A DNA stretch of 64,000 nucleotides from Cordylochernes scorpioides. Taxonomy: Eukaryota > Arthropoda > Arachnida > Pseudoscorpiones > Chernetidae. The translations under genes and the position numbers were made by a program. The notes under the pieces are model-generated. The model searched no databases and was not told where the DNA came from. It was given only the letters and a program-made list of their open reading frames with translations. The DNA lies in the NCBI GenBank assembly GCA_030710605.1, contig CP092874.1, positions 24,573,621 to 24,637,620 on the forward strand. The letters are read 5' to 3'. Shown in pieces: positions 8,520 to 59,000 of the stretch. The first letter of the stretch is position 1; each line of letters opens with the position of its first letter.

Positions 8520-9001
8520 GATGATAATAATAAAAAAAATTGATTTACCAGCACTGTAGTTATGTTCGTATTTCAAAACGGCAAGTTTCCTTAGTGAGGA
8601 ATTCGAATTTTTAGGACTAATTATGGAAGCGCATCAATAAATATTTTAAAATTGCAAAGTTAATATTTGCATTAAAAAAACGCCAAAAGTTATATATATA
8701 TATAATGGCATCTCAACTAATATTTATTTTACATATAAATATTTAACATATAAAAAAAAGCCTATGATATATATATACAGAATTTATATTCTAAAATATA
8801 TTTTTTATTGATTTTTTTTATATTCAAAATTTCATAGATAAACCATTTTGTTTAGAATCAATAAAAAACTTTTAAGATATAAACATATTTTGAAACAGAA
8901 GAGATTGTGGTGCGCCACAAGAGTAAGCTACGATAATTATTATTTGTAAAGATATACTTATTTTGATTTATTTATTATTTTGATATACTTATTAATTGAA
9001 A
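8520..9001. other. AT-rich intergenic sequence upstream of the UPF0669 gene
   Basis: Very AT-rich, with tatatata runs and several TATA-like sites. It should contain the promoter of the plus-strand gene at 9002, but no specific element could be identified. Confidence 0.5.
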
Positions 9002-9517
9002 ATGAAATTACTTAGTTTCCTAATATTTTTATTAATGTTTAGAAAATTGAAACTTCAACCCATGTTCCACCAGACGATTAAGGGTATGGTGGAAAATGGA
9101 AATTATACATATTATTCTCTAAACACCGCTGGATCAGCTACAATTATATTACGTTCTAAATTTGGAGATGCAGATCTTTATTTGTCAAATGATTACGAAT
9201 TTCCAACTTTTGATCCAGATACACATATTTTCCAATCAATCTCATGTGGATTAGATAGAGTTGATATACCTGAGTCGTTAGAACGTCCAATAACTATTGC
9301 CATATATGGGCATCCTGCCCATGAATATTCAATATATGAATTAGAAGTTACCATATATGGTGATGAAAATACTGTTACAGAAGATATTATTTCATTGGAA
9401 AAGATAACACATGGATATTCAGAAGATACACCTCAAAAAGAAGAAGATAAAGAATCAATTTTATGGACGATATTTTTCACGATTATTCAGGTTATTGTAG
9501 AAGTTATAACTAGTTAA
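9002..9517 (+). CDS. C6orf120: UPF0669 family protein (C6orf120 homologue), secreted or luminal
   Basis: An intact 171-codon single-exon gene. The ATG at 9002 is preferred because the only upstream in-frame codon is TTG. Residues 1-19 are a hydrophobic signal-peptide-like stretch (MKLLSFLIFLLMF). The fold-defining blocks of the UPF0669 family follow in order: N-Y-T at 34-36, a sequon matching N-Y-S in the vertebrate protein; GDADLYLS at 55-62; SCGLDRVDIP at 81-90; and IYGHPAHE at 101-108. An acidic linker comes next, then a conserved hydrophobic C-terminal helix beginning ESILWTI at 151. Length is close to the vertebrate proteins (about 190). The human member is reported as a secreted N-glycosylated protein. 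Its biochemical role is poorly known, so no reaction is assigned. Codon use is AT-rich like its surroundings, so recent transfer is not suggested. Orthology rests on motif order and is fairly secure. Confidence 0.85.
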   Translation: MKLLSFLIFLLMFRKLKLQPMFHQTIKGMVENGNYTYYSLNTAGSATIILRSKFGDADLYLSNDYEFPTFDPDTHIFQSISCGLDRVDIPESLERPITIAIYGHPAHEYSIYELEVTIYGDENTVTEDIISLEKITHGYSEDTPQKEEDKESILWTIFFTIIQVIVEVITS

Positions 9518-9754: not shown

Positions 9755-10400
9755 TACTATAGAAGCATAGGGCACCTCTCCCGTCAAAATAAACGTCAAA
9801 ACCTGACGCCACCTATTGACCGTCGCCGGCCTCGGGTCGGTGACAAAGCCGGATCTCATGGAATAAAGTCCGCCCTAGACTGACGAGGGCCATTAGCCCG
9901 AAACCATGGTCTCTAGGTGGACGCTTCTCAGTTTACCAAAGCTGGTGTTGTGGCTTTGTCACCGACCCGAGGCCGCTAGTTGCGGCGACGGTCAATAGAT
10001 GGCGTCAGTTTTTAACGTTTATTTTGACGGGAGAGGCGCCTTATGCTTCTATGGAATAATTTCCTCCCGGAAATTTTCCATCTACATAAATTACTTTAAA
10101 AGCATAATGCGCCTCTCCCGTCAAAATAAACGTCAAAAACCTGACGCCATCCTATGCTACTATGGATCAATTTCCTCCCGGCAAATTTTCCATCTATAAA
10201 TTACTATATATTTTATTATAGATTACTCATTTTGAATCGGGTCGGTGACAAAGCCGGATCTCATGGAATAAAGTCCGCCCTAGACTGACGAGGGCCATTA
10301 GCCCGAAACCATGGTCTCTAGGTGGACGCTTCTCAGTTTGCCAAAGATGCTGTTGTGGTTTGTCACCGACCCGAGGCCGCTAGTTGCGACGACAGTAATT
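9755..10400. mobile_element. Two or three nested foldback MITE copies, family F
   Basis: 9755-10060 is a complete foldback copy, with gaccgtcgccggcctcgggt in the left arm and the inverse in the right. 10090-10200 is a rearranged arm. 10235-10400 is a further partial copy with ggactttattccatgagatc. Repeated self-insertion or recombination between arms would explain the arrangement. Confidence 0.7.
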
Positions 10401-11425: not shown

Positions 11426-11483
11426 AAAATGCCCTTTTTCTCAAGTTATAAAACTCATTATGCAAGAAAAAAGAAAAAGAAAC

Positions 11484-11707
11484 TGTGGTGTTTTGCATAA
11501 CAATAGTTATGTTTTAGATAAATTGTCGAGATATGCAAATAAGGTTTTGCATAGTGTTTGTTTGTTGTTATTATGTTAATTATTTTTATGTATATATATG
11601 TATCATTAAATTGTAAATAGGCAGTCAGATTAGAGTTATGAGCGAATAAAGATTTTATCTCAGACCTAGTGGATCTCGGTGACCTGGTGTAGTGTAGAGA
11701 CACAACA
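11484..11707 (+). repeat. 5' LTR
   Basis: 224 bp from TGTGGTG to ACACAACA. An AATAAA polyadenylation signal (gaataaagatttt) lies about 60 bp before its end, and the preceding AT-rich part should hold the promoter. Confidence 0.92.
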
Positions 11708-11708
11708 G

Positions 11709-11718
11709 TGGCGACGAG
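11709..11718 (+). promoter_or_regulatory. Primer-binding site of the LTR retrotransposon
   Basis: TGGCGACGAG begins one base after the 5' LTR, the expected place for a site pairing with a tRNA 3' end (which finishes CCA). A 20-bp stretch spanning the LTR end and this site (11698-11717) is repeated at 11731-11750, so a second near-identical site lies at 11742. Confidence 0.65.
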
Positions 11719-11768
11719 TATAAAGGACGTAGACACAACAGTGGCGACGAAGGAAAAGTAAGCGAACA

Positions 11769-12863
11769 ATGATGAATATTGAACAGTTCAACCCAAACAA
11801 TGGAAATGAAATCTCAAGCTATTTAGAACGCTTTGAATCCTATTGCATAGCGAATGATATAGTAAAGATCGTTAAAAAGAAGGCAACATTTTTCTCGCTG
11901 TGCGGAAGAGAAACGTATAATATAATACGGACGTTGACCTCTTCCAAGAATCCATTGGAAACAGAATGGGAGGAGATAGTAGCAGGGATTAAAAAATATT
12001 TTGATCCAACGCCAAATATAATAGTGCAGCGTTTTAAATTTGCGAAAAGGCTTCAAATGCCAAATGAAACAATATCTGAATTTATAACAGCTCTAAAGAA
12101 AATTGCCGAGAAGTGTGAATTCCCTGATGTGGAAGATAGGTTGCGTGATGCCCTAGTATGCGGCATTCTAAGCGAAGAGATACAATCAATGCTGTTAATG
12201 AACAGTATGCTAACATTTAAAGTGGCTCAAGAGATGGCATTGGCACATGAGGCTGCGGTAAGGAACGTTGCAGAAATTAAAGACGGAAAACCTCAGGAAG
12301 AAATTAATGTAATGGGAAGAGCTGTTAAGGTGAGACGGAGGAATGAGAAGATTTTTAAATGTTTCCGCTGTGGATATACAAACCACAGAGAAGAGCAATG
12401 TTTCTTTAAAGAGAAAAGATGTTTTAAATGTCAGAAGTTAGGGCATATATCTAGGGTCTGTAAGAACGGGAACTGGAGGAGCGATCGTAATAATAACTGC
12501 TCGATAGATGAGGAGGCAGAGGCAACTAATGGCCTTTTTAATATAAATCAAGTGAAGGACACCAGTAACATGCGGAATTATATGGTAAAAGTACGGACTA
12601 GCGGTCGAGATATGAATATGCTCATTGACTCAGGAACAAGAAAAAATATTATTTCTGAGAAGACGTATATAAGAACTTGGGTGAAGTCAGAAAGGCCTAG
12701 AATAGAGAAGGATTATACCAAGTTGGTGCAATGGAACAGGCAGAGGTTATCGATTCTGGGTAAAATAAAAGCCGACGTAAAAGTAAACAAAAGAAGTATC
12801 ACAATGGAATTTCTTGTGATCGAAGGTCCGGGCCCAAATCTGATTGGAAGGGAGGGCTTTTGA
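11769..12863 (+). CDS. Gag-protease polyprotein of the LTR retrotransposon
   Basis: A 364-codon frame. Residues 1-180 are a Gypsy-type capsid region (for example EEIVAGIKKYF and ETISEFITALKKIAEKCEF). Two zinc knuckles of form CX2CX4HX4C lie near residues 198-211 and 218-231. The aspartic protease follows, with its active site LIDSGT at 285-290 (catalytic Asp 287) and the closing motif NLIGREG near 357-363. It normally builds the virus-like particle and processes the polyprotein. The frame ends just after the protease. The next frame, overlapping from 12844, continues the linker toward pol, so a frameshift separates the two. Start choice: the first ATG of two adjacent ones after the leader. 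Confidence 0.85.
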   Translation: MMNIEQFNPNNGNEISSYLERFESYCIANDIVKIVKKKATFFSLCGRETYNIIRTLTSSKNPLETEWEEIVAGIKKYFDPTPNIIVQRFKFAKRLQMPNETISEFITALKKIAEKCEFPDVEDRLRDALVCGILSEEIQSMLLMNSMLTFKVAQEMALAHEAAVRNVAEIKDGKPQEEINVMGRAVKVRRRNEKIFKCFRCGYTNHREEQCFFKEKRCFKCQKLGHISRVCKNGNWRSDRNNNCSIDEEAEATNGLFNINQVKDTSNMRNYMVKVRTSGRDMNMLIDSGTRKNIISEKTYIRTWVKSERPRIEKDYTKLVQWNRQRLSILGKIKADVKVNKRSITMEFLVIEGPGPNLIGREGF

Positions 12864-12925
12864 CCAGATTGGAATTGGTCTTGAATGGATGAATTATGGC
12901 GACAGTGTATGTCAAATCAATGAGG

Positions 12926-13190
12926 TAATGAATGGAAATGGTATGGCCGCTGCGATGAACGGTAATGGAATGGCCGCGGCTATGAATGGAACCGCCAATG
13001 GAATGATGAGCGGAGCTAATGGAATGGGCGCGGGTTACATGAACGGTGGGGAGGACATGTACAGTGAGGGTGACGGGCTGAGCGTGTATGGCAACCCCGG
13101 CGTGGACTTCCCACTTTTCGCCTCGGTGCCCCGAGACCAGCTTCCAATGCGGACAACAGGAGCTTCCTGGATACTATGCCGATCAGGAGG
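12926..13190 (+). pseudogene. Captured host exon: Met/Asn/Gly-rich linker plus partial peritrophin-type chitin-binding domain
   Basis: This segment sits where reverse transcriptase should begin. Its first half encodes a Met-Asn-Gly-Ala repeat (MNGNGMAAAMNGNG and variants). Then comes NPGVDFPLFASVP, and, after a one-base slip in a run of Cs near 13119, ETSFQCGQQELPGYYADQEG. The order VDxPxxxxxPxTxFxC...PGYYADxE is the N-terminal half of the CBM14 domain in arthropod cuticular proteins analogous to peritrophins. It breaks off just before the next expected cysteine. Base composition is clearly more GC-rich than gag. These features point to a fragment of a host cuticle gene copied into the element, probably by template switching from a spliced mRNA, since no intron is seen. 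With the frameshift it is unlikely to make a chitin-binding product. Confidence 0.75.
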
Positions 13191-13287
13191 GACCCACCAA
13201 GGCTGGAGGAAACACCTGGGCCAAGTAGACCAATAAGAAGCCGGAGACTTCCCGAATACTTAAAAGATCGTGTAACAAATTGGGGGT
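13176..13287 (+). pseudogene. Remnant of the pol C-terminus
   Basis: In the frame ending TGA at about 13285-13287 the peptide is Pro/Arg-rich and ends SRRLPEYLKDRVTNWG, the usual style of the last residues after integrase in Gypsy polyproteins. It lies directly before the polypurine stretch. The exact junction with the captured segment is somewhere in 13175-13195. Confidence 0.65.
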
Positions 13288-13294
13288 GAGAAGA

Positions 13295-13518
13295 TGTGGT
13301 GTTTTGCATAACAATAGTTATGTTTTAGATAAATTGTCGAGATATGCGAATAAGGTTTTGCATAGTGTTTGTTTGTTGTTATTATGTTAATTATTTTTAT
13401 GTATATATATGTATCATTAAATTGTAAATAGGCAGTCAGATTAGAGTTATGAGCGAATAAAGATTTTATCTCAGACCTAGTGGATCTCGGTGACCTGGTG
13501 TAGTGTAGAGACACAACA
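13295..13518 (+). repeat. 3' LTR
   Basis: 224 bp. It matches the 5' LTR except at one position (gcgaataagg here, gcaaataagg in the 5' copy). Confidence 0.92.
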
Positions 13519-13569
13519 GAAACAAAGATAAGATAGATTAGGAACCTGATCCTTTTTCAGGTTAGAAAG

Positions 13570-13790
13570 ATATTCATAAATATAGATGGAAATTTTACCG
13601 GGAGGATATTGATCTAAAGAGACAAAGGTCGCCTCTCCCGTCAAAATAGACGTCCAAACCAGACGCTATCTATTGACCGTCGCCGCAAACTAGCGGCCTC
13701 GGGTCGGTGACAAAGCCATAGATGGCGTCTGGTTTTGACGTCTATTTTGACGGGAGAAGCGACCTCTGTCTCTTTAGATTCATAAATATA
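13570..13790. mobile_element. Foldback MITE, family F, compact copy
   Basis: Arms of about 75 bp are inverted around 13700. The left contains gtcgcctctcccgtcaaaat and the right its inverse near 13740-13765. Confidence 0.8.
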
Positions 13791-14227: not shown

Positions 14228-15503
14228 ACTACTCTGATAAAAAAAAAGTTTCGACACTTTGCTCATAAGTTAAAAAAACTTTATTATTCTACCAAATTCA
14301 ATTTGTCCCCTTCAAAGTAGTCCCCGTTGGCCGCGATGCACTTCAGCCACCTTTTTTTCCAGTCGGCAAAACACCTCTGGTAATCTGTTTTCGGGATCGC
14401 CTTCATGGTCTTCTTCGATTCCACTTTGATCTCTTCTATGCTCTGAAATTTCCGACCTTTTAACTTTTTTTTAAAGCTTTCCAAAAAGGAAGAAGTCGCA
14501 GGGGGCCAAATCGGGACTGTAGGGGGGTTGGGGGAACACAGAGGTTGAGTGGTCCTGCAGGAACTTCGAGATTTTGAGGGCTGTGTGCCCCGGCGCGTTA
14601 TCGCGGTGGAGGATCCACGACTTGCTCCTCCACAGCTCCGGCCGTTTCTACCTGATCGTCTTCCTCAATCGCCTCAAAACTCCCCGGTAGGAGTCAGAAG
14701 TTATTGTAGAGCCTTGTTGTTGAAATTTATGATTAACGATGCCTTGGTAGTCGAAGAACACCGTCAATATGACCTTGACTTTGCTGGGAGCCTTCCTCGC
14801 TTTCTTTGGTCTCGGCTCATTTTTGAAGCGCCACTCCGATGCCGGTTGGGTAGTTTCCGAATCAAAGCCGTAAATCCATGTTTCGTCTCCAGTAATGACC
14901 CTCTTCAGCAATTCGGGGTCGTCGGTTGTCGCTTCGAGATTGAGACTGGCCGTTTCTTTCCGGGCGTTCTTTTGATCAAAAGTTAAATCTTTGGGAACGA
15001 GAACGGCGTTAAGTCTTCTCACTCCCAAAATGTCCTTCATTATCGATTGAGTCGACCTGAATGATATCCCTGCTTCTTCGGCGACCTCCCTGACAGTTAT
15101 TCGTCGGTCTTCACGCACCAGTTCCAACACCTTGTCCACTTTTTCAGGCGTGGTTTATGTGGACGGTTTCCCGGAACGCTCGTTGTCGGCGGCCTCTTCC
15201 CGACCCTCCTTGAAGCGCTTGCACCACTCGAAAACTCGTCTTCGGCTCATGACGGCATCCCCGTAGGCTGTTTGCAACATCCAAAAAATTTCGGCACCCT
15301 TGAATCCGTTTTTTTCACAGAACTTGATGCAAATTCGTTGATCCTCCATTTCGGTGACTAACGAAATCGAAGCACGGGCAAAATGGCTTCACTTCGAACA
15401 GCCGCTGCTCGCGCTGTTGTGGCGCGTGATTTTTGAAAATTGGCAGGTCTCCAAGCCAAGGGCGACGCTTGCGTTTACCACAAACCGGGACCAGCGACTT
15501 TAA
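14228..15503 (-). pseudogene. Mariner (Tc1/mariner, D,D34D) transposon, inactivated
   Basis: Read on the minus strand, the transposase starts MEDQRICIKFC at 15349. The N-terminal helix-turn-helix region contains SRRRVFEWC, and a second DNA-binding helix contains REVAEEAGIS. The catalytic triad is visible: GDETWIYGFD, HRDNAPGH and SPDLAPCDFF, with 34 residues between the second and third Asp as in mariner. The element is broken by an in-frame stop at 15155-15157, another at 14648-14650, and a frameshift plus stop near 14485; the last stretch resumes at 14484-14284. The 3'-side terminal repeat (agtttcgacactttgctcat) is present at 14246-14265. The 5'-side repeat is not recognisable beyond 15503. 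It is a dead DNA transposon related to the fragment at 6626. Confidence 0.9.
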
Positions 15504-35000: not shown

Positions 35001-38000
35001 CTAATAGGATTGAGTGGAGATAAGAAAGAAGAAGATTCCTTCTTGTTACACCTTGTAAGTAGACACATTGCCAGTGAAGAAGGAGGAAATAAGGAAGAGG
35101 GGGAACTGACCGAAACGGTGCAGGATTTTGTTCATCCAACCAACACCCTCCCGACATGGGGTACATTGGCCGCAGCTCTCGTGTTTGTAGAACTCCATGA
35201 GGCGGTGGATGGCCCGGATAATGTCCGTCTGCTTGTTCATCACAATGACGGCTGCGGTGCCGAGGGCAGTCTTGGCCTGGACCAGAGAGTCAAAGTCCAT
35301 CAGGACTTCTTCACACACCCTGGAACACAACACACGGTGGGTCACATACAATCTCTTAGTCATCTGAGTGAAAAATTAAACATTATAAACACAAGGTAAT
35401 AAGACCAAATCCAAATAAATAAATAGTGTGTGACATTTCGGTAACAGCGTTGTTACCATCTGTTAGGATTTTATAAGTTGTTTTATCATAGATTTATATA
35501 TTTGTATTTTGACCAGATGACCGGACGGTTTTACATGTATATAATTGGTTTTAAATGATGTAAATTAGTTAGTCATGAAAGGAAATTAAAAGTGTTGATT
35601 TTATTAGAGGTGTTAGTGTTTACTCTGCTCGATTGTAGACTGGGGGAAAGAATTGATTCCTAACACCATCTTCAGACAAAAGTACTGAATGAGAAATTTT
35701 ACCCTTAATAAAAGTAAAATTTCTCATTCAGTACTTTTGTCTGAAGATGGTAACAACGCTGTTACCGAAACGTCACACACTATTTATTTATTTGGATTTG
35801 GTCTTATTACCTTGTGTTTTATAATCTATAATCCAAACTGTGCCTTATCAATTAAACATATTATTTAGCTTTCTCTCCTTGTTAAGTTACAATTTGGATT
35901 ATAGATTCGAAACACAAAATAATAAAAGGCCAAATTAAAATAAATAGTGTGTGATGATAAGGCACAATTTGGATTATAGATTAGAACTTTATGGTAATAA
36001 GACCATATCAAAATAAATAGTATGTGGTGTTTTGGATAACAGCGTTGTTACCGAAATGTCACACTCTATTTATTTGGATTTGGTCTTATTATCTTATAAT
36101 AGTGTGTGATGTTTTGTTAACAATGCTGTTATTGAAAAGAGTCATTCACTATTTATTTGAATTTTCACTCATTATACCTTGTGTTGCCACTATGATGAAA
36201 ATATGTAAGGAGGGTGTGGCTCATCAAGGGTTAACCCTCCCAGTGGTTTCACCAGTTTAATCTACCATACTGTTTTCAGAGCTATAATATTGTATTGGTC
36301 AGCTGTCTTACTTATATATATAGCTGGCACTCTAGAGGAAAAAGCTTGGCGAAGGTATTTAAGCAAACCATGGACAGTAGAATTGCATATAAATATAGAC
36401 ATTGAGCAATGTTACAAGAAAATAAGCCCTAATCCAAATAAATTGTGTGTGTGATGTTTTGCCTGATGATGGTGGTAACACAGCTGTTACCGAAACATCA
36501 CACACTATTAATATATTTGGATTTGGTCTTATTACCTTGTAACATTGCTCAATGTCTATATTTTAAATATGCAATTCTACTGTCCTCAAAGTTCATGTCC
36601 ATGGTATGCTTAAATACCTTCGCCGAGCTTTTTCCTCTAGAGTGCCAGATATATTTATAGGCAGTTCAGCCAACCAATACAATATAAGAGGTCTTATTTT
36701 CTTGTAGCCATAATCCAAATTGTGCTTTATCAATGAGCAATGCTCTTCTGTAAACAATTCATGTAAAAAGCCAGATGGGAGGACAACAACACTGTTACCG
36801 AAACATCACACAATATTAATTTATTTGGATTAGAGGTCTTATTTTCTTGTAGCCATATTCCAAATTATGCTTTATCGTTGAGGAATACTCTTCTGTAAAA
36901 AAATTAATATAAAAAGCCAGCAGGGAGGACAACAACACTGTTACCGAAACATCACACACTATTAATTTATTTGGATTAGAGGTCTTATTTTCTTGTAGCT
37001 ATAATCTATAATCCAAATTGTGCTTTATCATTAAGCAATGCTTTTCTGTACACAATTCATATAAAAGGTCAATTGAGGGGACATTCATTTGTAAAAATGG
37101 AAAAGAACTTACGACTTAGGGATGACAGGGGTGGAAGACCCCCCAGGGATGATGGCCAGTAGGTTGTCCCACCCCCCCAGCACACCCCCGCAGTGGCGTT
37201 CAATCAGCTCCCTCAGTGGGATTGACATCTCCTCCTCCACGGTACAGGGGTACTTCACGTGGCCAGAGATGTTGAACAGCTTTGTGCCGGAGTTACGAGT
37301 CCGTCCGAAGGAAGCAAACCATTCACCACCCCTACGGCAGATGGCGGGAGCCACGGCTACAGTCTCTACATTGGACACAGTTGTGGGGCAGCCGAACAGT
37401 CCCACGTCTGCTGGGAACGGAGGCTTTAGACGGGGTTTGCCTTGCTTGCCCTCAATTGACTCAATCAGGGCCTGCAGACACAACCACTCTATTATTTGTT
37501 ATGAAAAAAGACATCTCCTTATCGTGCAAATGAAAGTTGTTGATGGCTTGCGCCATCTATCGGAATAAATATCAACTATTCTCGTTGATTTTTAATTATT
37601 CCAGAATTGGCCAAATACCCATTCTTGATTAATCAAGAAAAGCTAACCACGGACGCGTTTCGGGCTGTTGGCCCTCATCAGCGTGGTGCAAGCTGTACCT
37701 CAACGACCAAAAAAAAAAGAACTGGTCATTCAAGGCATCCTGAAAAATCATGAAACGGGTAGTTAAAGCCAGAATTGTGTGAGACCGCGACATTATTTAT
37801 GTTGTTGTTTCTTATCCCCTTGTGTAAAAATTGAACAAATTCCATGAGTTCATGCTCCTCGAGCATCGAGCTGCGTCTGTACTCATGTTAGAGTAGGCAG
37901 CAAAGGCATCTGCTTCCATATTAGGAACGGCCTCAAACTACAGGCAAAGTTAGACTTTCACCAAAGTGTGCCTGGATCATGGCGCCATGATCAATGAAAG

Positions 38001-41000
38001 CTACACTCCTTCACCCCATTCCATGAGATTATTTGTGTACACAGTACAACTTCCATGAGAGGACACCTCTTCACAAATGACAGTTATCATTGTCAAAATT
38101 ACCATTAAGAGTTGTCTTTCCCTCTTAACTTTCTTCTAGTTATAAACTAACCATATTTTGATTTGAACACCTTCTACACAATGCTTTCTTTGCCTCATGC
38201 ATTTAGAACCTGTTTGTCTATTACAGTAGAACCTCCATGAGAGGACACCTCTCTACAAAAGGACAGTTTTCATTTGCAAAATTAACATTTTTACTATTTA
38301 GCAACTTTCTAGTAAAAGGACACCTCTCCCTAAAGGACAATTTGGCTATGCAAATAGGTGTTGTCCTTTAGAAATAGGCTCTGTATTTGGTTCAGACAAC
38401 AAATAATCATATTTTGCCTTGCTGTCAATTGACAGAGCAAGTTCCTATTAAAGGAGTAAAGCTACTAAAATCCTTCTCCTCCTTTCTTATCTCCACTCAA
38501 TCACACTAAGGTATCAAGCTTATAGAGCTTGTTGATGGTGTCTGCTGGGGTAGAGGAGAGCTCATCAATGGATGAGTCAATACAGTCAATAATATGTCTT
38601 GGGATTGCAGGCTGAGAATTGCACTTAGTACATAGTGGGAAAACCTTGCAACCATTCTGGAAAGTCATCGTCCGTAGATGACCAGACTTAAGTCTGGAAA
38701 TCAAAGACTGTTGTTCTCTTGGGAGGACAGAACCGGTGCTTGTCCCTCCTGCTTTGTACCAGTCATGTGCAGCATTAGATTTCCATTCCTGCAGGCATTG
38801 GATTTTGATGGTACAGAGGAGGTCTCTTTCGTCTAGTTGGGTGGTAGATTCTCTTGCTTCAGTTAGGCCAAGAGCTCCAGCCTTTGCTACTAAAATGGTT
38901 GTCAAGAGTTGACATCTTTGTTCTCAAATATCTACATTAACTTAGCGCCATATATATATCGCTGAAAATTATATAAACATTTTTTTTAAATGCTACTTTT
39001 CTTCTTAAATAAATATAATTCAAATTTATTTCTCTATAGCCACTATCCTGCAATGAATAAAAACAATTTAAAGATGGAGGGTATGGCTCATCATTGATGA
39101 ACCCTCACAATGGTTTTATCCTTTCAATCTCCAGGTCATTTCACTAATGTATTGGACTGAAGGCTTGGTTTTGTATACAGTAAAATTGTGTTTGGAACAA
39201 ACTATTGATGAGAGAAGTGTGGACGCAGGCGCCGCTTGGAGGCGCTGCATGAAGATAACTGACCAATGGGAACGGCCCACCTCAACCATCAGTATTCTTC
39301 CTTGTATATAACCAAAAGACTGTCTTTGTTCTACTGCTGTGTGCGGTTGTTATTCTTTTGTAAACATATGTATCCTTATATCTAATAATACTATATTTAT
39401 AAAATCACTTATTTGGCTGTTCTTTTTACAACATCGACCCAAAACAACTATGTTCTAATCTTTGTTTCTGTTTGATACCAAAAAGGAAAATAAATAATTA
39501 AAAAAAAACAGCATTATGTAAATAGGGTGCATATACAAATCACTCACCGTCTCCTCTCCGCAGATGTAGGCTCCAGCCCCACGTTGAATGAAGACATCGA
39601 AGTCATAGCCGCTGCCACAGGCATTCTTGCCGATCAAGCCTTCCTTGTAGGCTTCCTGGATAGCCAGCTGCATGTTGGAGGCCTCATTGTAGAACTCTCC
39701 GCGGATGTAGATGTACGCCGCGCGGGCTCCCATACAGAAACCTCCTATCAGACACCCCTCAATCAGTTTGTGAGGGTCGTGGCGCATGATCTCGCGATCC
39801 TTGCAGGTCCCCGGCTCCCCCTCATCAGCATTCACCACGAGGTACTTGGGCCGGCCATCACTAGGCTTGTGCATGAAACTCCACTTCATGCCTGTCGGGA
39901 AACCTGCTCCTCCGCGACCTCGCAGCCCAGACTTCTTCATCTCCTCCACAATCCACTGCGGACCTTTCAGGATGATCTCCTTGGTCTTGTACCAGTCTCC
40001 CTGAGTCACACCGTTGGTGAGACATAATAGAGGATGGATGGAAGACAAGCTAATTGAGAGGAAGAATTATTATCCCCTTGTGTAAAGATTACATAAATTC
40101 CATGAGTTCATGCTCCACTGCTGGTATGGTTGTTTCTTATCCCCTTGTGTAAAGATTATACAAATTCCATCAGTCCTTGTTTCTTTAGCTGCTTGATGAA
40201 AAGCAGAGACCTCTCCCAAAGGTCCTGTTTAGTTGCATCTAATGCAAGCCAAAATGTGTTCTGAAGCTGCAAGCACCAAGCTAACTTTTGATGATATTCA
40301 TGGTAGGTAAGGGTTTGTGAATGCTTTTAATATAAAGTACACCAATGTCTACGCAGATAGAAATAAATTTGGACTTTTATACTCAAGGTACCAGAACCCC
40401 AATTAATTACTTGTGCATTCACTGGTGTATTTGGTTTTGTGTAAGAATTGGGAAGGGGGGGGGGGGGGGGCACATTGAAGCAAATTTGAACAATGTGCTA
40501 ATGAAGGATTCAATCCTAGATTGACTTTGTCAAAATCCTATCCTACAGCCCAATTGTGGCGGGAGAGTGAAATAACAGGTAGCTCACTACATCAGGACTC
40601 CTGGTAGAACCACCCTAGGTTGAGCTATATACAGTCGAACCTCTTTAATTCAACACCCCAAGGGATCAGAGCTTTCGGTTGAATTAAAGGAAGTGTTGAA
40701 TTAAGGTTATATGATTAGGTAATCATCTAACTCGCTAAAAAAATATTTTTTAAAATAGCCTTGTAATATAAATTAATGATATTAATTGAAACCATTGTGT
40801 GTTTTTATTTTATTTTCATGATTAACTTTTAGTATCAGTGGCAAAATGGCATTAATACATATTTTAGAAACATAAATAATTGTAACAAATAAATTTATTG
40901 GCAATGTGTTTCTTTTCAGTAATATAATCAAATATTAACTCTACAGACATTAAAATATTAAATATAATATATTAAATAATATTTTATTCTAATTGAAAAA

Positions 41001-44000
41001 TATAGCAGTTGAAAGGAAATAAATATGGTAAATAAAAAGAAAATTTTAAAATAATCATGAAGAGATCTTTTAAAAAAATTATTTATAGATATCTGTTTTT
41101 GCACTGAAATTCTATTCAGGATGTATTCCAGATGGCATTTTGAAAAAACATGCATGCCTTTCTTCCTCTGAAATGTCTTTTAATAAATAAATTTTAATGT
41201 ATTAAAGGCATCCACTGCTGCTGCAGGTGTTATTGATTTTGTGTTTAAATCTTTTATAATAACACAGAAATGGAATATTGAAATAAAATGTTATCATAAT
41301 CATTGTGGCTACATTGTATAAAGATTTATTTATTTAAAAAGAAATTATTTATAAATTTAAAAATAGCTAAAATATTTCAATGTTAAAAATAAAAAAATAA
41401 AAATTATTATTAGTTAGCGCATGATGCCGAAATTCCCGCGTAAAAAAAACAACAATAACATCCGCGAAATTGCGCAACGGCACTGCAAAGTGAAACTTAA
41501 ACTAACCATAAACCAAAAGTGCGCAGGCGCGATCCGATCGGCACCCGCCGTAATACCGTTTAGCGGTAAAGTTGCATGTAAAATAACATTCAACTGTCGA
41601 AATTCGAATTTTAAGATGGTCGAACTATCGGAACTGTCGTATTATCGATACTGTCGAATTACGGTTTGTTATTTGATAGGCCGGAGGTCGGGACATCGGA
41701 ACATGGTCGAATTATCGCCGAGTGTCTAATTGGGGTGTGTCGAATTAACGAGGTTATACTGTACTTGCTAATGTAGGAAGGTACAAATTGGTAGTGTTTG
41801 TTCTCCGCAGCTACAAAGGGTATCTGTACTCCATGTTAGCACCAAACTAAAGTCACACCGAGTGGTACTTCCAGGTTCCCAATCCTACAGCATCCTCCTT
41901 TCCCTCTCCATGAAGGTTTCTTCTGTGATTGACAAAACTGAGACTCCTGTTGGAGATCATCTAAATTATATCCGAGGGAATAAGCAACAACAACATCCTG
42001 GATGGAAGTTGTAGAAAATTGACAGTTTATACTATAACATCACCAATATCATGCTCAGAGGATCAAATACAAGCTGAGTGGTGGTATTATCTTTGATCAT
42101 AAGATCCCAGAGGGGTCCTATGTGACACAAGATCCTTGTGTATTCTGTATACCACATTGAAAACACCGGTTCTCGTCCGATCACCGAAATTAAGCAACGT
42201 CGGGCCCGGTCAGTACTTGGGAGGGTGACCACCAGGGAAAACCGGGTGCTGTAGGCTATTACCTTTAGGGGGTCGGTGAAAGGATGGTCTAAACTGTTGG
42301 TTTTCGACTGCTACGACCCGAGTTCGATTCCCGCATTGGGCACGGGGCTCTGGCACATTTGTAAGTGCAAAGTCTAACTGCTTTTCACATGTGTAGATAT
42401 GTGATGTACTTACAGTAAAAGCAGTCGCTAACTACCCACCATGATTATCATGGCCTGTACCATGTGTACAGGCAATACAGGAATAAGCAAAAAAAAAAAA
42501 AATGCTCAGAGGATCAAATACAAGCTGAGTAGTGGCATCTTCTTTGATCATAAAATCCCAAAAGATCCTTTGAGGCCCCACTCTATACAACTCCAGACCT
42601 AACACTGGAAATAGACCTTAGAGAATATGTTCAAGTACTATTGATGGTTACAAAGCTGTGTGGTACATTTCCAGATAAACTAAAGTGGTAAAATAAGGCA
42701 CACACAAACTGGACACAACAAGGCTAACAAATAAAAATTAAAGATCCATCCGGGGAGGAGTTTCTTTAATAGTCTTTATTACTTGAACTCTCTCAAATTT
42801 TCAGGCTTATAAGCCTGAAAGCTTCAAGTAATAAAAAATTATCATATAGAATCTCATTCCCAAAAAAAGATCATTGATTTTTATTTAACGCACAGGGGAT
42901 TAATATTTATTAAGGCTAAAAAATTTCATTCTTTCTTATCTCCACTCAACAATCATATCAGGGTATCAAGCCAAGCCTGTAGAGCTTGTGGATAGTGTCT
43001 GCTGGAGTTGAGTAGAGCTCATCAGACATAATCAAAAGTCTCAAGCTTTACAAGCTTTTTTTTTTTTGCTTATCCCAAGTACATGTGGTACAGGCCATGA
43101 TAATCATGGTGGGTAGAGGCTAACGACTGCATTTACTGTAAGTGCACCACATGCCTATACATGTGAAAAGCAGTTCGACTTTGTACTTACAAATGTGCCA
43201 GAGCCCCGTTTGGTTACTTACACTCGCTGGTGGGGTTGGACTTTTGCAAGAATCGGGGGCCATTGAAGCATTTTTTTTTTTGTTAAACAGAAAAAAATTG
43301 TCCAATGCGGGAATCGAACCTGGGTCGTAGCCGTCGAAAACCAACGGTTTAGACCATCCTAACACCGACCTCTCTTTACAAGCTTGATAGCCTAATATTA
43401 TTGAGTGGAGATAAGAAAGAAGATTGGTTAGCCTTAATAGATATTGGCTAACAGAAATAAAACAACTGGGTGATATAAGAAAGAAGAGAGCTCGAGAAGC
43501 ATGAACTCATGGAATTTGTGTAATCTTTACACAAGGGGATAAGAAACAACAACAACAAGAAAGAAAAGACATTTACCCGAGCCTTGGCTCCTTTGACCCT
43601 CCAATCATGGCGGCCATAGAGGTTGGTGAAGATACGATCTTCATCCTTGAGGGGTCCATACTTGGTCTGAAACACCAGACACACACAAACTTTAGAAATA
43701 CATTTACTTACATACCATGGTTGATAATACACACACAGGCACAACTCAAGATATTTTATATGGTAAAAAGATATTTGATAAATTATCCCGCATGTGTTTC
43801 TTTCGAACGAAAAATCAAAATTTATTTCAAGGAGAAATAACGATTATTTCTAACCTTAGGGATGAGGTATGAAAGGATGAATTGTGAAGAGTAATGATAA
43901 ACGGAAAAATAAAAGTGTCCAAGGATGGGAATTTTATTTTTCTGTTTATCATTACCCTTCACAATTCATCCTTTCATATTTATCCCTAAGGTTAGAAATA

Positions 44001-53000: not shown

Positions 53001-56000
53001 CACAATTTGGATTATAGATTAGAACTTTATGGTAATAAGACCAAATCTAAATAAATAGTATGTGGTGTTTTGGATAACAGCGTTATTACTGAAATGTCAC
53101 ACTCTATTTATTTAGTTGGTCTTATTATCTTATAATAGTGTGTGATGTTTTGTTAACAATGCTGTTATTGAAAAGTCATTCACTATTTATTTGAATTTTC
53201 ACTCATTATACCTTGTGTTGCCACTATGATGAAAAGATGTAAGGAGGATGTGGCTCATCAATGGTTAAACCCTTCCAGCGATTTCACCAGTTTAATCTAC
53301 CATACCGTTTTGAGAGGTCCAATATTGTATTGGTCAGCTGTCTTACTTATATACATATATCTGGCACTCTAGAGGAAAAAGCTTGGCGAAGGTATTTAAA
53401 CACATCATGGACATAAACTTTGAGGACAGTAGAATTGCATATAAATATAGACATTGAGCAATGCTATAAGAAAATAAGACCTAATCTAAATAAATTAATA
53501 GTGTGTGACGTTTTGCCTGATGATAGTAACACAGCTGTTACTGAAACATCACACACTATTAATTTATTTGGATTAGGTCTTATTTTCTTGTAGCATTGCT
53601 CAATGTCTATATTTATATGCAAATCTACTGTCCTCAAAGTTTATATACATGGTTTGGTAAATACCTTCACTAAGCTTTTTTCTCTAGAGTTCCAGCTATA
53701 TATATATAGGCAGAACAGCCAACCAATACAATATTAGAGGTCTTATTTTCTTGTAGCTATAACCTAAATTGTGCTTTATTGTTGAGCAATGCTCATCTGT
53801 ACACAATTCATATAAAAAGCCAGCTGGAAGGACAACAATACTGTTACCGAAACATCACACATTATTAATTTATTTGGATTAGAGGTCTTATTTTCTTGTA
53901 GCTATAATCTATAATCCAAATTGTGCTTTATCATTAAGCAATGCTTTTCTGTACACAATTCATATAAAAGGTCAATTGAGGGGACATTCATTTGTAAAAA
54001 TGGAAAAGGACTTACGACTTAGGGATGACAGGGGTGGAAGACCCCCCAGGGATGATGGCCAGCAGGTTGTCCCACCCCCCCAGCACACCCCCACAGTGGC
54101 GTTCAATCAGCTCCCTCAGTGGGATTGACATCTCCTCCTCCACGGTACAGGGGTACTTCACGTGGCCAGAGATGTTGAACAGCTTTGTGCCGGAGTTACG
54201 AGTCCGTCCGAAGGAAGCAAACCATTCACCACCCCTACGGCAGATGGCGGGAGCCACGGCTACAGTCTCTACATTGGACACAGTTGTGGGGCAGCCGAAC
54301 AGTCCCACGTCTGCTGGGAACGGAGGCTTTAGACGGGGTTTGCCTTGCTTGCCCTCAATTGACTCAATCAGGGCCTGCAGACACAACCACTCTATTATTT
54401 GTTATGAAAAAAGACATCTCCTTATCGTGCAAATGAAAGTTGTTGATGGCTTGCGCCATCTATCGGAATAAATATCAACTATTCTCGTTGATTTTTAATT
54501 ATTCCAGAATTGGCCAAATACCCATTCTTGATTAATCAAGAAAAGCTAACCACGGACGCGTTTCGGGCTGTTGGCCCTCATCAGCGTGGTGCAAGCTGTA
54601 CCTCAACGACCAAAAAAAAAAAAACTGGTCATTCAAGGCATCCTGAAAAATCATGAAACGGGTAGTTAAAGCCAGAATTGTGTGAGACCGCGACATTATT
54701 TATGTTGTTGTTTCTTATCCCCTTGTGTAAAAATTGAACAAATTCCATGAGTTCATGCTCCTCGAGCATCGAGCTGCGTCTGTACTCATGTTAGAGTAGG
54801 CAGCAAAGGCGTCTGCTTCCATATTAGGAACGGCCTCAAACTACAGGCAAAGTTAGACTTTCACCAAAGTGTGCCTGGATCATGGCGCCATGATCAATGA
54901 AAGCTACACTCCTTCACCCCATTCCATGAGATTATTTGTGTACACAGTACAACTTCCATGAGAGGACACCTCTTCACAAATGACAGTTATCATTGTCAAA
55001 ATTACCATTAAGAGTTGTCTTTCCCTCTTAACTTTCTTCTAGTTATAAACTAACCATATTTTGATTTGAACACCTTCTACACAATGCTTTCTTTGCCTCA
55101 TGCATTTAGAACCTGTTTGTCTATTACAGTAGAACCTCCATGAGAGGACACCTCTCTACAAAAGACAGTTTTCATTTGCAAAATTAACATTTTTACTATT
55201 TAGCAACTTTCTAGTAAAAGGACACCTCTCCCTAAAGGACAATTTGGCTATGCAAATAGGTGTTGTCCTTTAGAAATAGGCTCTGTATTTGGTTCAGACA
55301 ACAAATAATCATATTTTGCCTTGCTGTCAATTGACAGAGCAAGTTCCTATTAAAGGAGTAAAGCTACTAAAATCCTTCTCCTCCTTTCTTATCTCCACTC
55401 AATCACACTAAGGTATCAAGCTTATAGAGCTTGTTGATGGTGTCTGCTGGGGTAGAGGAGAGCTCATCAATGGATGAGTCAATACAGTCAATAATATGTC
55501 TTGGGATTGCAGGCTGAGAATTGCACTTAGTACATAGTGGGAAAACCTTGCAACCATTCTGGAAAGTCATCGTCCGTAGATGACCAGACTTAAGTCTGGA
55601 AATCAAAGACTGTTGTTCTCTTGGGAGGACAGAACCGGTGCTTGTCCCTCCTGCTTTGTACCAGTCATGTGCAGCATTAGATTTCCATTCCTGCAGGCAT
55701 TGGATTTTGATGGTACAGAGGAGGTCTCTTTCGTCTAGTTGGGTGGTAGATTCTCTTGCTTCAGTTAGGCCAAGAGCTCCAGCCTTTGCTACTAAAATGG
55801 TTGTCAAGAGTTGACATCTTTGTTCTCAAATATCTACATTAACTTAGCGCCATATATATATCGCTGAAAATTATATAAACATTTTTTTTAAATGCTACTT
55901 TTCTTCTTAAATAAATATAATTCAAATTTATTTCTCTATAGCCACTATCCTGCAATGAATAAAAACAATTTAAAGATGGAGGGTATGGCTCATCATTGAT

Positions 56001-59000
56001 GAACCCTCACAATGGTTTTATCCTTTCAATCTCCAGGTCATTTCACTAATGTATTGGACTGAAGGCTTGGTTTTGTATACAGTAAAATTGTGTTTGGAAC
56101 AAACTATTGATGAGAGAAGTGTGGACGCAGGCGCCGCTTGGAGGCGCTGCATGAAGATAACTGACCAATGGGAACGGCCCACCTCAACCATCAGTATTCT
56201 TCCTTGTATATAACCAAAAGACTGTCTTTGTTCTACTGCTGTGTGCGGTTGTTATTCTTTTGTAAACATATGTATCCTTATATCTAATAATACTATATTT
56301 ATAAAATCACTTATTTGGCTGTTCTTTTTACAACATCGACCCAAAACAACTATGTTCTAATCTTTGTTTCTGTTTGATACCAAAAAGGAAAATAAATAAT
56401 TAAAAAAAAACAGCATTATGTAAATAGGGTGCATATACAAATCACTCACCGTCTCCTCTCCGCAGATGTAGGCTCCAGCCCCACGTTGAATGAAGACATC
56501 GAAGTCATAGCCGCTGCCACAGGCATTCTTGCCGATCAAGCCTTCCTTGTAGGCTTCCTGGATAGCCAGCTGCATGTTGGAGGCCTCATTGTAGAACTCT
56601 CCGCGGATGTAGATGTACGCCGCGCGGGCTCCCATACAGAAACCTCCTATCAGACACCCCTCAATCAGTTTGTGAGGGTCGTGGCGCATGATCTCGCGAT
56701 CCTTGCAGGTCCCCGGCTCCCCCTCATCAGCATTCACCACGAGGTACTTGGGCCGGCCATCACTAGGCTTGTGCATGAAACTCCACTTCATGCCTGTCGG
56801 GAAACCTGCTCCTCCGCGACCTCGCAGCCCAGACTTCTTCATCTCCTCCACAATCCACTGCGGACCTTTCAGGATGATCTCCTTGGTCTTGTACCAGTCT
56901 CCCTGAGTCACACCGTTGGTGAGACATAATAGAGGATGGATGGAAGATAAGCTAATTAAGAGGAAGAATTCTTATACCTTTGTGTAAAGATTACACAAAT
57001 TCCATGAGTTCATGCTCCACTACTGGTATGGTTGTTTTTGTTTCTTATCCCCTTGTGTAAAGATTACACGAATTCCATTAGTACATGCTCCTCGAGCTGT
57101 ATGATGAAAAGCAGAGGTCTCTACCAAAGTTCCTGTTTAGTTGCATCTAATGCAAGCCAAAATGTGTTCTGAGGTTGCAGGTGCCAAGCTAACTTTTGAT
57201 GATATTCATGGTAGGTAAGGGTTTGCGAATGCTTTTAATGTAAAGTACACCAATGTCTACGCAGATAGAAATAAATTTGGTCTTTTATACTCAAAGTACC
57301 ATAGCCGTCCCTTTAATTACTTGTGCACCCACTGGTGTATTTGGTTTTGTGTAAGAATTGGGAAGGGGGGCACATTGAAGCAATTTTTTTTTTTTGACAA
57401 TGTGCTAATGAAGGATTAAATCCTGGATTGAATTTGTCAAAATCTTATCCTACAGCCTAATTGTGGCGGGAGAGTGAAATAACAGGTAGCTCACTACATC
57501 AGAACTCCTGGTAGAACCACCCTAGACTGAGCTATATACCCAGCTAATTTAGAAAGGTACTTGGTAGTATTTGTTCTCCGCAGCTACGAAGGGTATCTGT
57601 ACTCCATGTTAGCACCAAACTAAAGTCACACCGAGTGGTACTTCCAGGTTCCCAGACCTACAGAACTCTCCTTTTCCCTCTCCATGAAGGTTTCTTCTGT
57701 GATTGACAAAGCTGAGACTCCTGTTGGAGATCATCTGAATTATATCAGAGGGAATAAGAAGCAACAACATCCTGGATGGAAGTTGTAGAAAATTGACAGT
57801 TTATACTATAACATCACCAATATCATGCTCAGAGGATCAAATACAAGCTGAGTGGTGGCATCTTCTTTGATCATATGATCTCAGGGGAGGAGGGTCCTAT
57901 GTGACACAAGATCCTTGTATAATGTGTGTACCACATTGAAAACACCGGTTCTCGTCTGATCACCGAAGTTAAGCAACGTCAGGCCCGGTCAGTACTTGGG
58001 AGGGTGACCACCTGGGGGTGCTGTAGGCTATTACCTTTAGGGGGTCGGTGAAAGGAGGGTCTAAACCGTTGGTTTTCGACCGCTACGACCCGAGTTCGAA
58101 TCCCGCATTGGGCACGGGGCTCTGGCACATTTGTAAGTGCAAAGTCGAACTGCTTTTCACATGTGTAGATATGTGATGTACTTACAGTAAAAGCAGTCGC
58201 TAACTACTCACCATGATTATCATGGCCTGTACCAGGTGTACAGGCAATAAATACATGGATAAGCCAAAAAAAAATGCTCAGAGGATCAAATACAAGCTGA
58301 GTAGTGGCATCTTCTTTGATCATAAAATCCCACAAGATCCTTTGAGGCCCCACTCTATACAACTCCAGACCTAACACTGGAAATAGACCTTAGAGAATAT
58401 GTTCAAGTACTACTGATGGTTACAAAGCTGTGTGGTACATTTCCAGATAAACTAAAGTGGTAAAATAAGACACACACAAACTGGACACAACAAGGCTAAC
58501 AAATAAAAATTACAGATCCATCCGGGGAGGAGTTTCTTTAATAGTCTTTATTACTTGAACTCTCTCAAATTTCCAGGCTGATAAGCCTGAAAGCTTCAAG
58601 TAATAAAAAACTATCAAATAGAAACTCATTCCCAAAAAAAAAAAAAAATCTTTGATTTTTATTTAATGCACAGGGGATTAATATTTATTAAGGCTAAAAA
58701 ACTTCATTCTTTCTTATCTCCACTCAATCATATCAGGGTATCAAGCCTGTAGAGCTTGTGGATAATGTCTGCTGGGGATGAGTAGAGCTCATCAGACATA
58801 ATCAAAAGTCTTAAGCTTTACAAGCTTTTTTTTTTTCGCTTATCCCAAGTTCACGTAGTACAGGCCATGATAATCATGGTGGGTAGAGGCTAACGACTGC
58901 ATTTACTGTAAGTGCACCACATGTCTACACATGTGAAAAGCAGTTCGACTTTGCACTTACAAATATGCCAGAGCCCCGTTTGGTTACTTGCACTCGCTGG

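Follow-up and report, generated by a model that had tools for sequence, protein, structure and literature searches.

An LTR retrotransposon with a complete outline occupies positions 11484-13518, on the plus strand, of the window, by which we mean the whole stretch of 64,000 nucleotides of the pseudoscorpion Cordylochernes scorpioides analyzed here (contig CP092874.1, positions 24,573,621 to 24,637,620 of the forward strand). It is flanked by the target-site duplication (TSD) GAAAC, found identically at 11479-11483 and 13519-13523, and its two LTRs, each of 224 bp and of the TG...CA type, extend over 11484-11707 and 13295-13518 and differ at one base. As read from the sequence, a primer-binding-site-like stretch (PBS; GTGGCGACGAG, 11708-11718) abuts the 5′ LTR, and a purine-rich stretch resembling a polypurine tract (PPT; GGGGGTGAGAAGA, 13280-13294) lies ahead of the 3′ LTR. 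Between them are found a gag-protease frame (11769-12863), a captured host segment (12928-13193) and the residual 3′ end of pol (13194-13289, about 96 bp), an integrase tail that ends in LPEYLKDRVTNWG with its stop at 13287-13289. Only this last part of pol is present, and the window copy is filed as a non-autonomous Ty3/gypsy derivative missing reverse transcriptase (RT) and integrase. All the structural parts listed in the original prediction (target duplication, LTRs, primer site, gag-protease and polypurine stretch) were located within 11479-13523; the interval on which it centered, 12926-13287, does hold the captured host segment, but also takes in the roughly 96 bp of pol tail. We also note that the end of the LTR together with the PBS (20 nt, 11698-11717) recurs 33 bp downstream in the leader, at 11731-11750.

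The window locus itself is duplicated 29.7 kb away (L031 at C12:24586520 and L034 at C12:24556815), with an identical TSD and a diverged right flank. The one-base difference between the LTRs, which had been taken as a sign that the chimera moved recently, therefore dates the insertion but is no proof of an independent move, since the duplicate shares the same TSD. Other features of the window include a MITE-like inverted repeat adjoining the element (13607-13784), with similar-looking sequence upstream at 9790-10400, and transposase frames in broken pieces at 14284-15361 on the minus strand, which we take to be mariner-like. A secreted-protein-like frame at 8996-9517 resembles UPF0669/C6orf120. 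Further downstream, the blocks 36902-43271 and 53805-59041 recur at a spacing of about 15.8-16.9 kb, and an exon-like frame, presumably related to the mitochondrial complex I subunit NDUFV1, is present twice on the minus strand (39455-40066 and 56357-56971); these repeated blocks represent either a local duplication or unmerged haplotypes.

The gag-protease frame carries a CCHC zinc knuckle, a Retrotrans_gag-like region and an aspartic protease-like region with a DSG motif. In Pfam comparisons of the window, zf-CCHC reached 23 bits (cut-off 20.8), Retrotrans_gag scored 21.7, below its cut-off of 24.1, and Asp_protease, RVP and gag-asp_proteas each remained under their own cut-offs. The window frame stops at 12863 owing to a one-base length difference at 12850-12860 that is unique among the 30 copies compared. 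Among 112 scored genomic matches to the gag-protease, which, like the insert matches, were ranked by similarity to the window and so form a biased sample, identity ranged from 97 to 100%, 108 were stop-free, and the surrounding open frame measured 376-672 aa; 376 aa is the window's own value, and in the other matches the frame extends beyond the window's end point. When placed on the window's frame, in a comparison that skips length changes, 25 of 30 loci were free of stops. In pairwise counts on 29 insert-search loci (all 30 but L034), the pooled pS was 0.0586 and pN 0.0090 (pN/pS 0.153), and the element lineage has kept Gag-Pro under purifying selection.

The captured segment (12928-13193, 266 bp) encodes a Met/Asn/Gly repeat run followed by the first half of a CBM14 domain. 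When the genome (2.62 Gb in 24 contigs) was searched at the protein level with the 21-residue piece of the window joined to a typed generic tail, the output consisted of 125 element rows, other CBM14 exons and a single gene place on contig C2. There the donor first half, at C2:153922117-153922194, matches at 92% across 26 residues and is part of an open frame of 813 aa; 1.15 kb further on lies the exon that scored best for the second half of CBM14. In the donor loci (L091 and L092, at about C2:153.922 Mb), Met/Asn/Gly repeats precede YGNPGVDFPLFASVPETSFQCGQQELPGYYADQEGQCQ and a splice-donor-like GT, and VFHICQADGRMDSFLCPNATLFNQQFFVCDWWFNVDC lies in the following exon; in the exons read, one CBM14 domain is spread across two exons. 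The spliced donor peptide, its splice being predicted from the DNA, scores 42.4 bits against CBM_14 (E 7.5e-11; cut-off 22.1). The comparison of the window pieces with Pfam CBM_14, proposed in the original prediction, gave no match; because the 33 aa that the donor exon contributes to the first half are, on their own, equally unmatched, Pfam on the window pieces cannot decide their CBM14 identity.

At the DNA level, segment 12928-13193 aligns with the host exon (L091, 499-781; C2:153921898-153922180) at 242 of 284 columns (85%, E 4e-78 in a two-sequence comparison). Because of this alignment, and because the next exon completes the domain, the cuticle-type C2 gene is the source of the captured segment. 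The search for a parental cuticle gene was thus successful within the same genome, although comparing the window pieces with 30 CBM14 loci, the first of 150 matches, turned up no donor. The donor gene confirms the predicted Met/Asn/Gly run and first CBM14 half, but in the window copy the half domain is split over two frames, with NPGVDFPLFASVP in one and ETSFQCGQQELPGYYADQEG in the next. The claim that the segment is richer in GC than gag also holds (0.571 vs. 0.385 in gag-pro). That it is intronless is correct but uninformative: the segment ends 8 nt short of the donor splice site and lies wholly within one exon, so that the lack of an intron cannot separate capture from RNA and capture from DNA. 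The donor resembles CPAP1 proteins in that its CBM14 domain follows a long variable stretch (excerpt of PMC3504105), the donor being known from two exons; the element differs from this family in holding only half of a CBM14 domain.

Relatives lacking the host segment were found via tail places without the capture joint. Three of the four such tails fetched (L099, L100, and L102) are pol-deleted, the gag-protease joining the integrase end directly with no cuticle sequence, and the fourth (L101) has integrase-type sequence upstream; L103 (C1 tail 48149548), a fifth non-captured tail, is likewise of the integrase type. The residual pol tail seen at 13194-13289 is common to both kinds of relative, and neither the pol-deleted nor the integrase-type pieces that were read contain the captured segment. 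The upstream sequence of L101 and L103 is taken by us to be integrase from its motifs and position; the integrase piece returned nothing from Pfam and nothing useful from the solved-structure search. The integrase-end peptide of L101 matched at all 150 scored places (481 candidates), in open frames of 75-1298 aa. A 601-bp piece of one of these relatives, L105, encodes RT (RVT_1 at 1.5e-24), the closest solved chains to this one piece being 4ol8 (1.6e-32), which we take to be the Ty3 RT, and then the Ty3-G Gag-Pol (1.1e-31). The family thereby resembles Ty3/gypsy elements (Metaviridae) in its 5-bp TSD, TG...CA LTRs, CCHC gag and DSG motif as well as in the RT of this relative, and differs from them in that the window copy is devoid of RT, RNase H and the integrase core. 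A gag-pol copy was also looked for among the top gag-pro matches and not found: none of the 112 scored had a frame longer than 672 aa.

There are 48 places with the pol-deletion joint, which is known from its integrase side only; two of them are classed as captured copies with an older left joint (one of them, L104, was read), leaving 46 uncaptured. The 33 listed tails on C1 comprise 17 captured, 9 pol-deleted and 5 integrase-type copies, and 2 that were placed in the captured class by their one-base-difference pattern. The original prediction that pol was replaced by about 265 bp therefore stands as regards the presence of the host segment, but not as a single step, the pol-deleted form having preceded the capture: we infer that the cuticle piece replaced part of the leftover integrase end in an already pol-deleted form.

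Both joints of the captured segment can be compared with their putative parents. The left joint of the window copy (12919-12935) reads AATGAGGTAATGAATGG and that of the older-looking copy L104 AATGAGGTAATTATGGGAAACGG; over the compared stretch, the older captured copy has GAGGTAATTATGGGAAACGGTATGGCC, the pol-deleted form GAGGTAATTATGGAAAACGGAGTG, and the donor many ATGAATGGAAACGG units. From these sequences, the left switch point would fall inside the stretch common to the pol-deleted form and the donor. At the right joint, the donor reads GAGGGACAATG, the pol-deleted form AATGACCCAAACG and the window copy GAGGGACCCACC, with a few more bases missing. Neither joint has more than a short homology, and on the left it falls within repetitive sequence. 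Both may be explained by template switching at short similarities, a route that has been described for LTR elements (excerpt of PMC5408686).

The window copy had been read as a single chimera, which is not upheld: it belongs to an amplified family of about 280 copies. A pattern search allowing up to 3 mismatches located 278 captured-junction places genome-wide, answering the suggestion that further chimeric copies be sought, and one allowing up to 2 mismatches located 500 tail-plus-LTR places; these family counts stem from pattern and ranked searches of unequal stringency and are approximate. Likewise, in the DNA search with the insert, all 40 of the best 40 scored (of 499 candidates) matched across the whole query, and the idea of a lone chimera was rejected, the insert matching many places. 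LTR pairs could be compared in 27 of the 30 fetched insert-search loci, L045, L052 and L053 being excluded because one LTR match was partial; they show 0-7 differences (median 1), with none in eight loci. By our reading, a perfect 5-bp TSD is present in 19 of the 27, corresponding to fewer than 19 independent sites, as L031/L034 and L041/L042 are, from their flanks, duplicates of one locus each. The chimera has transposed after the capture, as copies have their own TSDs and LTRs with 0-7 differences.

In seven of the 27 loci a second PBS comes after the right LTR, indicating tandem copies, and one (L050) is the second unit of an array. Tandem unit arrays are seen at L050-L051, at C21:69847482-69850816 and at C5:72690457-72694147, and L051-L050 are jointly bounded by one TSD (GCTTT), as expected from unequal exchange between LTRs. 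A further captured copy, L098 (C8:26859160-26859680), contains part of the cuticle piece and pol tail twice, as an internal tandem repeat.

The fate of the captured piece varies among copies. In five fetched copies (L093-L097), the end of gag-protease, the repeats and the half domain stand in a single frame. The window class differs from these five and from the donor by one base at 13129-13132; with up to 2 mismatches, the stretch carrying this difference occurs at 164 places and the stretch without it at 118, including the donor (one mismatch). Counting all 118 as in frame with Gag-Pro was rejected, as many have only a 50-aa frame. Across the 125 scored element rows, the open frame through the half domain measures at least 400 aa in 20, 159-322 aa in 6, 48 aa in 70, 50 aa in 27, and 73 and 40 aa in one each, the half CBM14 thus not lying in a long frame in 99. 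The 48-aa rows that could be matched fall in the window's class, as do two rows of at least 400 aa (C7:49884485 and C8:57517047). Most of the 50-aa rows that could be matched lack the window's one-base difference (C1:89775136, C2:135538713, C4:118809798, and others), so that a second frame break would have to lie elsewhere in these copies; in several of them the Gag-Pro frame (539-584 aa) is suspected to run on into the pol tail.

The 30 insert-search loci all belong to the window's class, owing to the ranking by likeness to the window. Identical LTRs are found in 8 of the 27 measurable window-class loci, 6 of these 8 with a perfect TSD. Since such copies moved recently even though their half domain is off frame, the element probably does not need the half domain, which is likely a passenger. 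The five in-frame copies show 4 silent changes per 421 sites and 14 replacement changes per 1577 sites (pooled over 10 pairs), i.e., about equal rates; selection on the captured part is not demonstrable from so few changes and with a donor branch that is itself constrained. The donor differs from these copies at 10-13 of 201 sites, mainly silently, a pattern that constraint acting on the host gene can account for. Contraction of the repeat is common among the copies read, whose Met/Asn/Gly run varies in length and falls short of the donor's.

We consider it highly probable (roughly 0.92) that the window copy belongs to a non-autonomous Ty3/gypsy family that lost pol, captured a cuticle exon by template switching and was amplified in trans, with half of CBM14 carried along as a passenger. 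This reading is built on the donor exon, the uncaptured pol-deleted form, the RT/integrase-type relatives, the joints and the several hundred copies present in the genome, from which we infer the order of the steps, co-packaging, template switching and trans-mobilization. An autonomous gag-pol element would first have lost RT through most of integrase. The shortened element RNA would then have been reverse-transcribed alongside a co-packaged cuticle transcript, the polymerase presumably jumping from one template to the other where they share a short homology (left, about ATGGAAACGG; right, GAC), a switch that would have put at least 266 bp of cuticle exon in frame behind Gag-Pro. The resulting chimera would most likely supply its own Gag-Pro and be packaged through its LTR, PBS and PPT signals, and the pol products of autonomous relatives would copy and integrate it in trans; mobility in trans, already proposed in the original prediction, is indirectly supported by a copy without RT next to relatives with open frames of up to 1298 aa. 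In most scored copies the half CBM14 has come off the Gag-Pro frame, and these copies went on spreading. Capture of a host exon by a non-autonomous Ty3/gypsy-type element is thus supported by the coexistence of donor, pol-deleted form and RT/integrase-type relatives in one genome.

The cuticle segment might instead have been acquired at the DNA level, through gap repair or ectopic exchange involving the exon and an element that had inserted close to the gene. For a segment that remains within one exon, ends 8 nt before its splice donor and crosses no intron, such an exchange would leave an identical look, but the sense orientation and the short homologies at both joints speak for reverse transcription, which has been described as a route (excerpt of PMC5408686), and the 1 kb of sequence surrounding the donor exon that was read contained no element fragment; we regard a DNA-level origin as unlikely, if still worth bearing in mind. 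That the segment is ordinary retrotransposon coding sequence merely resembling a cuticle domain could be argued from the missing Pfam CBM_14 match in the window pieces, but its DNA matches an exon whose next exon completes CBM14, and it is missing from the pol-deleted and integrase-type pieces read, so that we give this explanation practically no weight.

A functional role of the captured part, as a host-derived C-terminal extension of Gag-Pro (the low-complexity Met/Asn/Gly run) aiding particle formation or packaging, would agree with the in-frame fusion in the five copies read, with gag-pro frames of 376-672 aa that pass the window's end point in the other matches, and with the surplus of 278 captured over about 46 uncaptured places, numbers obtained with patterns of unequal length. 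Against it stand the similar silent and replacement rates among the five in-frame copies, the 99 of 125 scored copies whose half CBM14 is not in a long frame, the window-class copies with identical LTRs and their own TSDs, and the common contraction of the repeats, while the gap in copy number can be drift; we find such a role improbable, marginally more so than a DNA-level capture. The surplus over the uncaptured pol-deleted places may stem from an advantage conferred by the fused run or from chance alone, and nothing favors an advantage. We hold it more doubtful again that the Met/Asn/Gly fusion improved the Gag of the pol-less element and let the chimera outgrow its uncaptured sister (about 278 vs. 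46); if true, the particle protein of a retrotransposon would have gained a working part from a host cuticle exon.

Several known systems share parts of the history proposed under the template-switching reading. The TR-GAG elements of plants are non-autonomous LTR elements that retain PBS, PPT and gag in addition to the LTRs, lack pol and are mobilized in trans. The window family similarly keeps gag without most of pol and would likewise move in trans; in contrast to TR-GAG, it is found in an animal, retains protease and a pol tail, and adds a host exon. The maize element Bs1 retains gag, lacks RT and has a low copy number. Like the window family, Bs1, the classical example, is an LTR element with partial host gene fragments in its coding region, having transduced a plasma-membrane ATPase and other gene fragments (excerpts of PMC13317346; PMC5408686). 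The present family is an animal counterpart of Bs1, differing from it in that one donor gene is involved (three in Bs1), that about 280 copies exist, that protease was kept, and that an uncaptured pol-deleted form and RT/integrase-type relatives are still present. In metazoans, LTR-mediated retroposition was described by Tan et al. (2016; as cited in excerpts of PMC5408686 and PMC8232201), with reverse transcription switching from the RNA of an LTR element to a host mRNA, or back, where the two share short similarities, as proposed here; the products in that account are retrocopies of host genes, whereas here an amplified element family carries the host piece behind Gag-Pro. Judging by titles and the beginnings of abstracts, we found no report of a cuticle or chitin-binding exon in an LTR element, which is not proof of absence, and no such case appeared in the literature on captured host genes in insects, among the titles listed of a larger set.

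LTR elements with host gene fragments are therefore a kind already known, but the record in this genome is unusually complete. When LTR elements capture host genes, the event is usually deduced from its end products. In this animal, the donor, the RT- and integrase-type relatives, the intermediate that had lost pol, chimeras in frame and daughter classes whose frame is broken coexist in one genome, which makes it possible to read and count the successive steps, the joints and what became of the exon.
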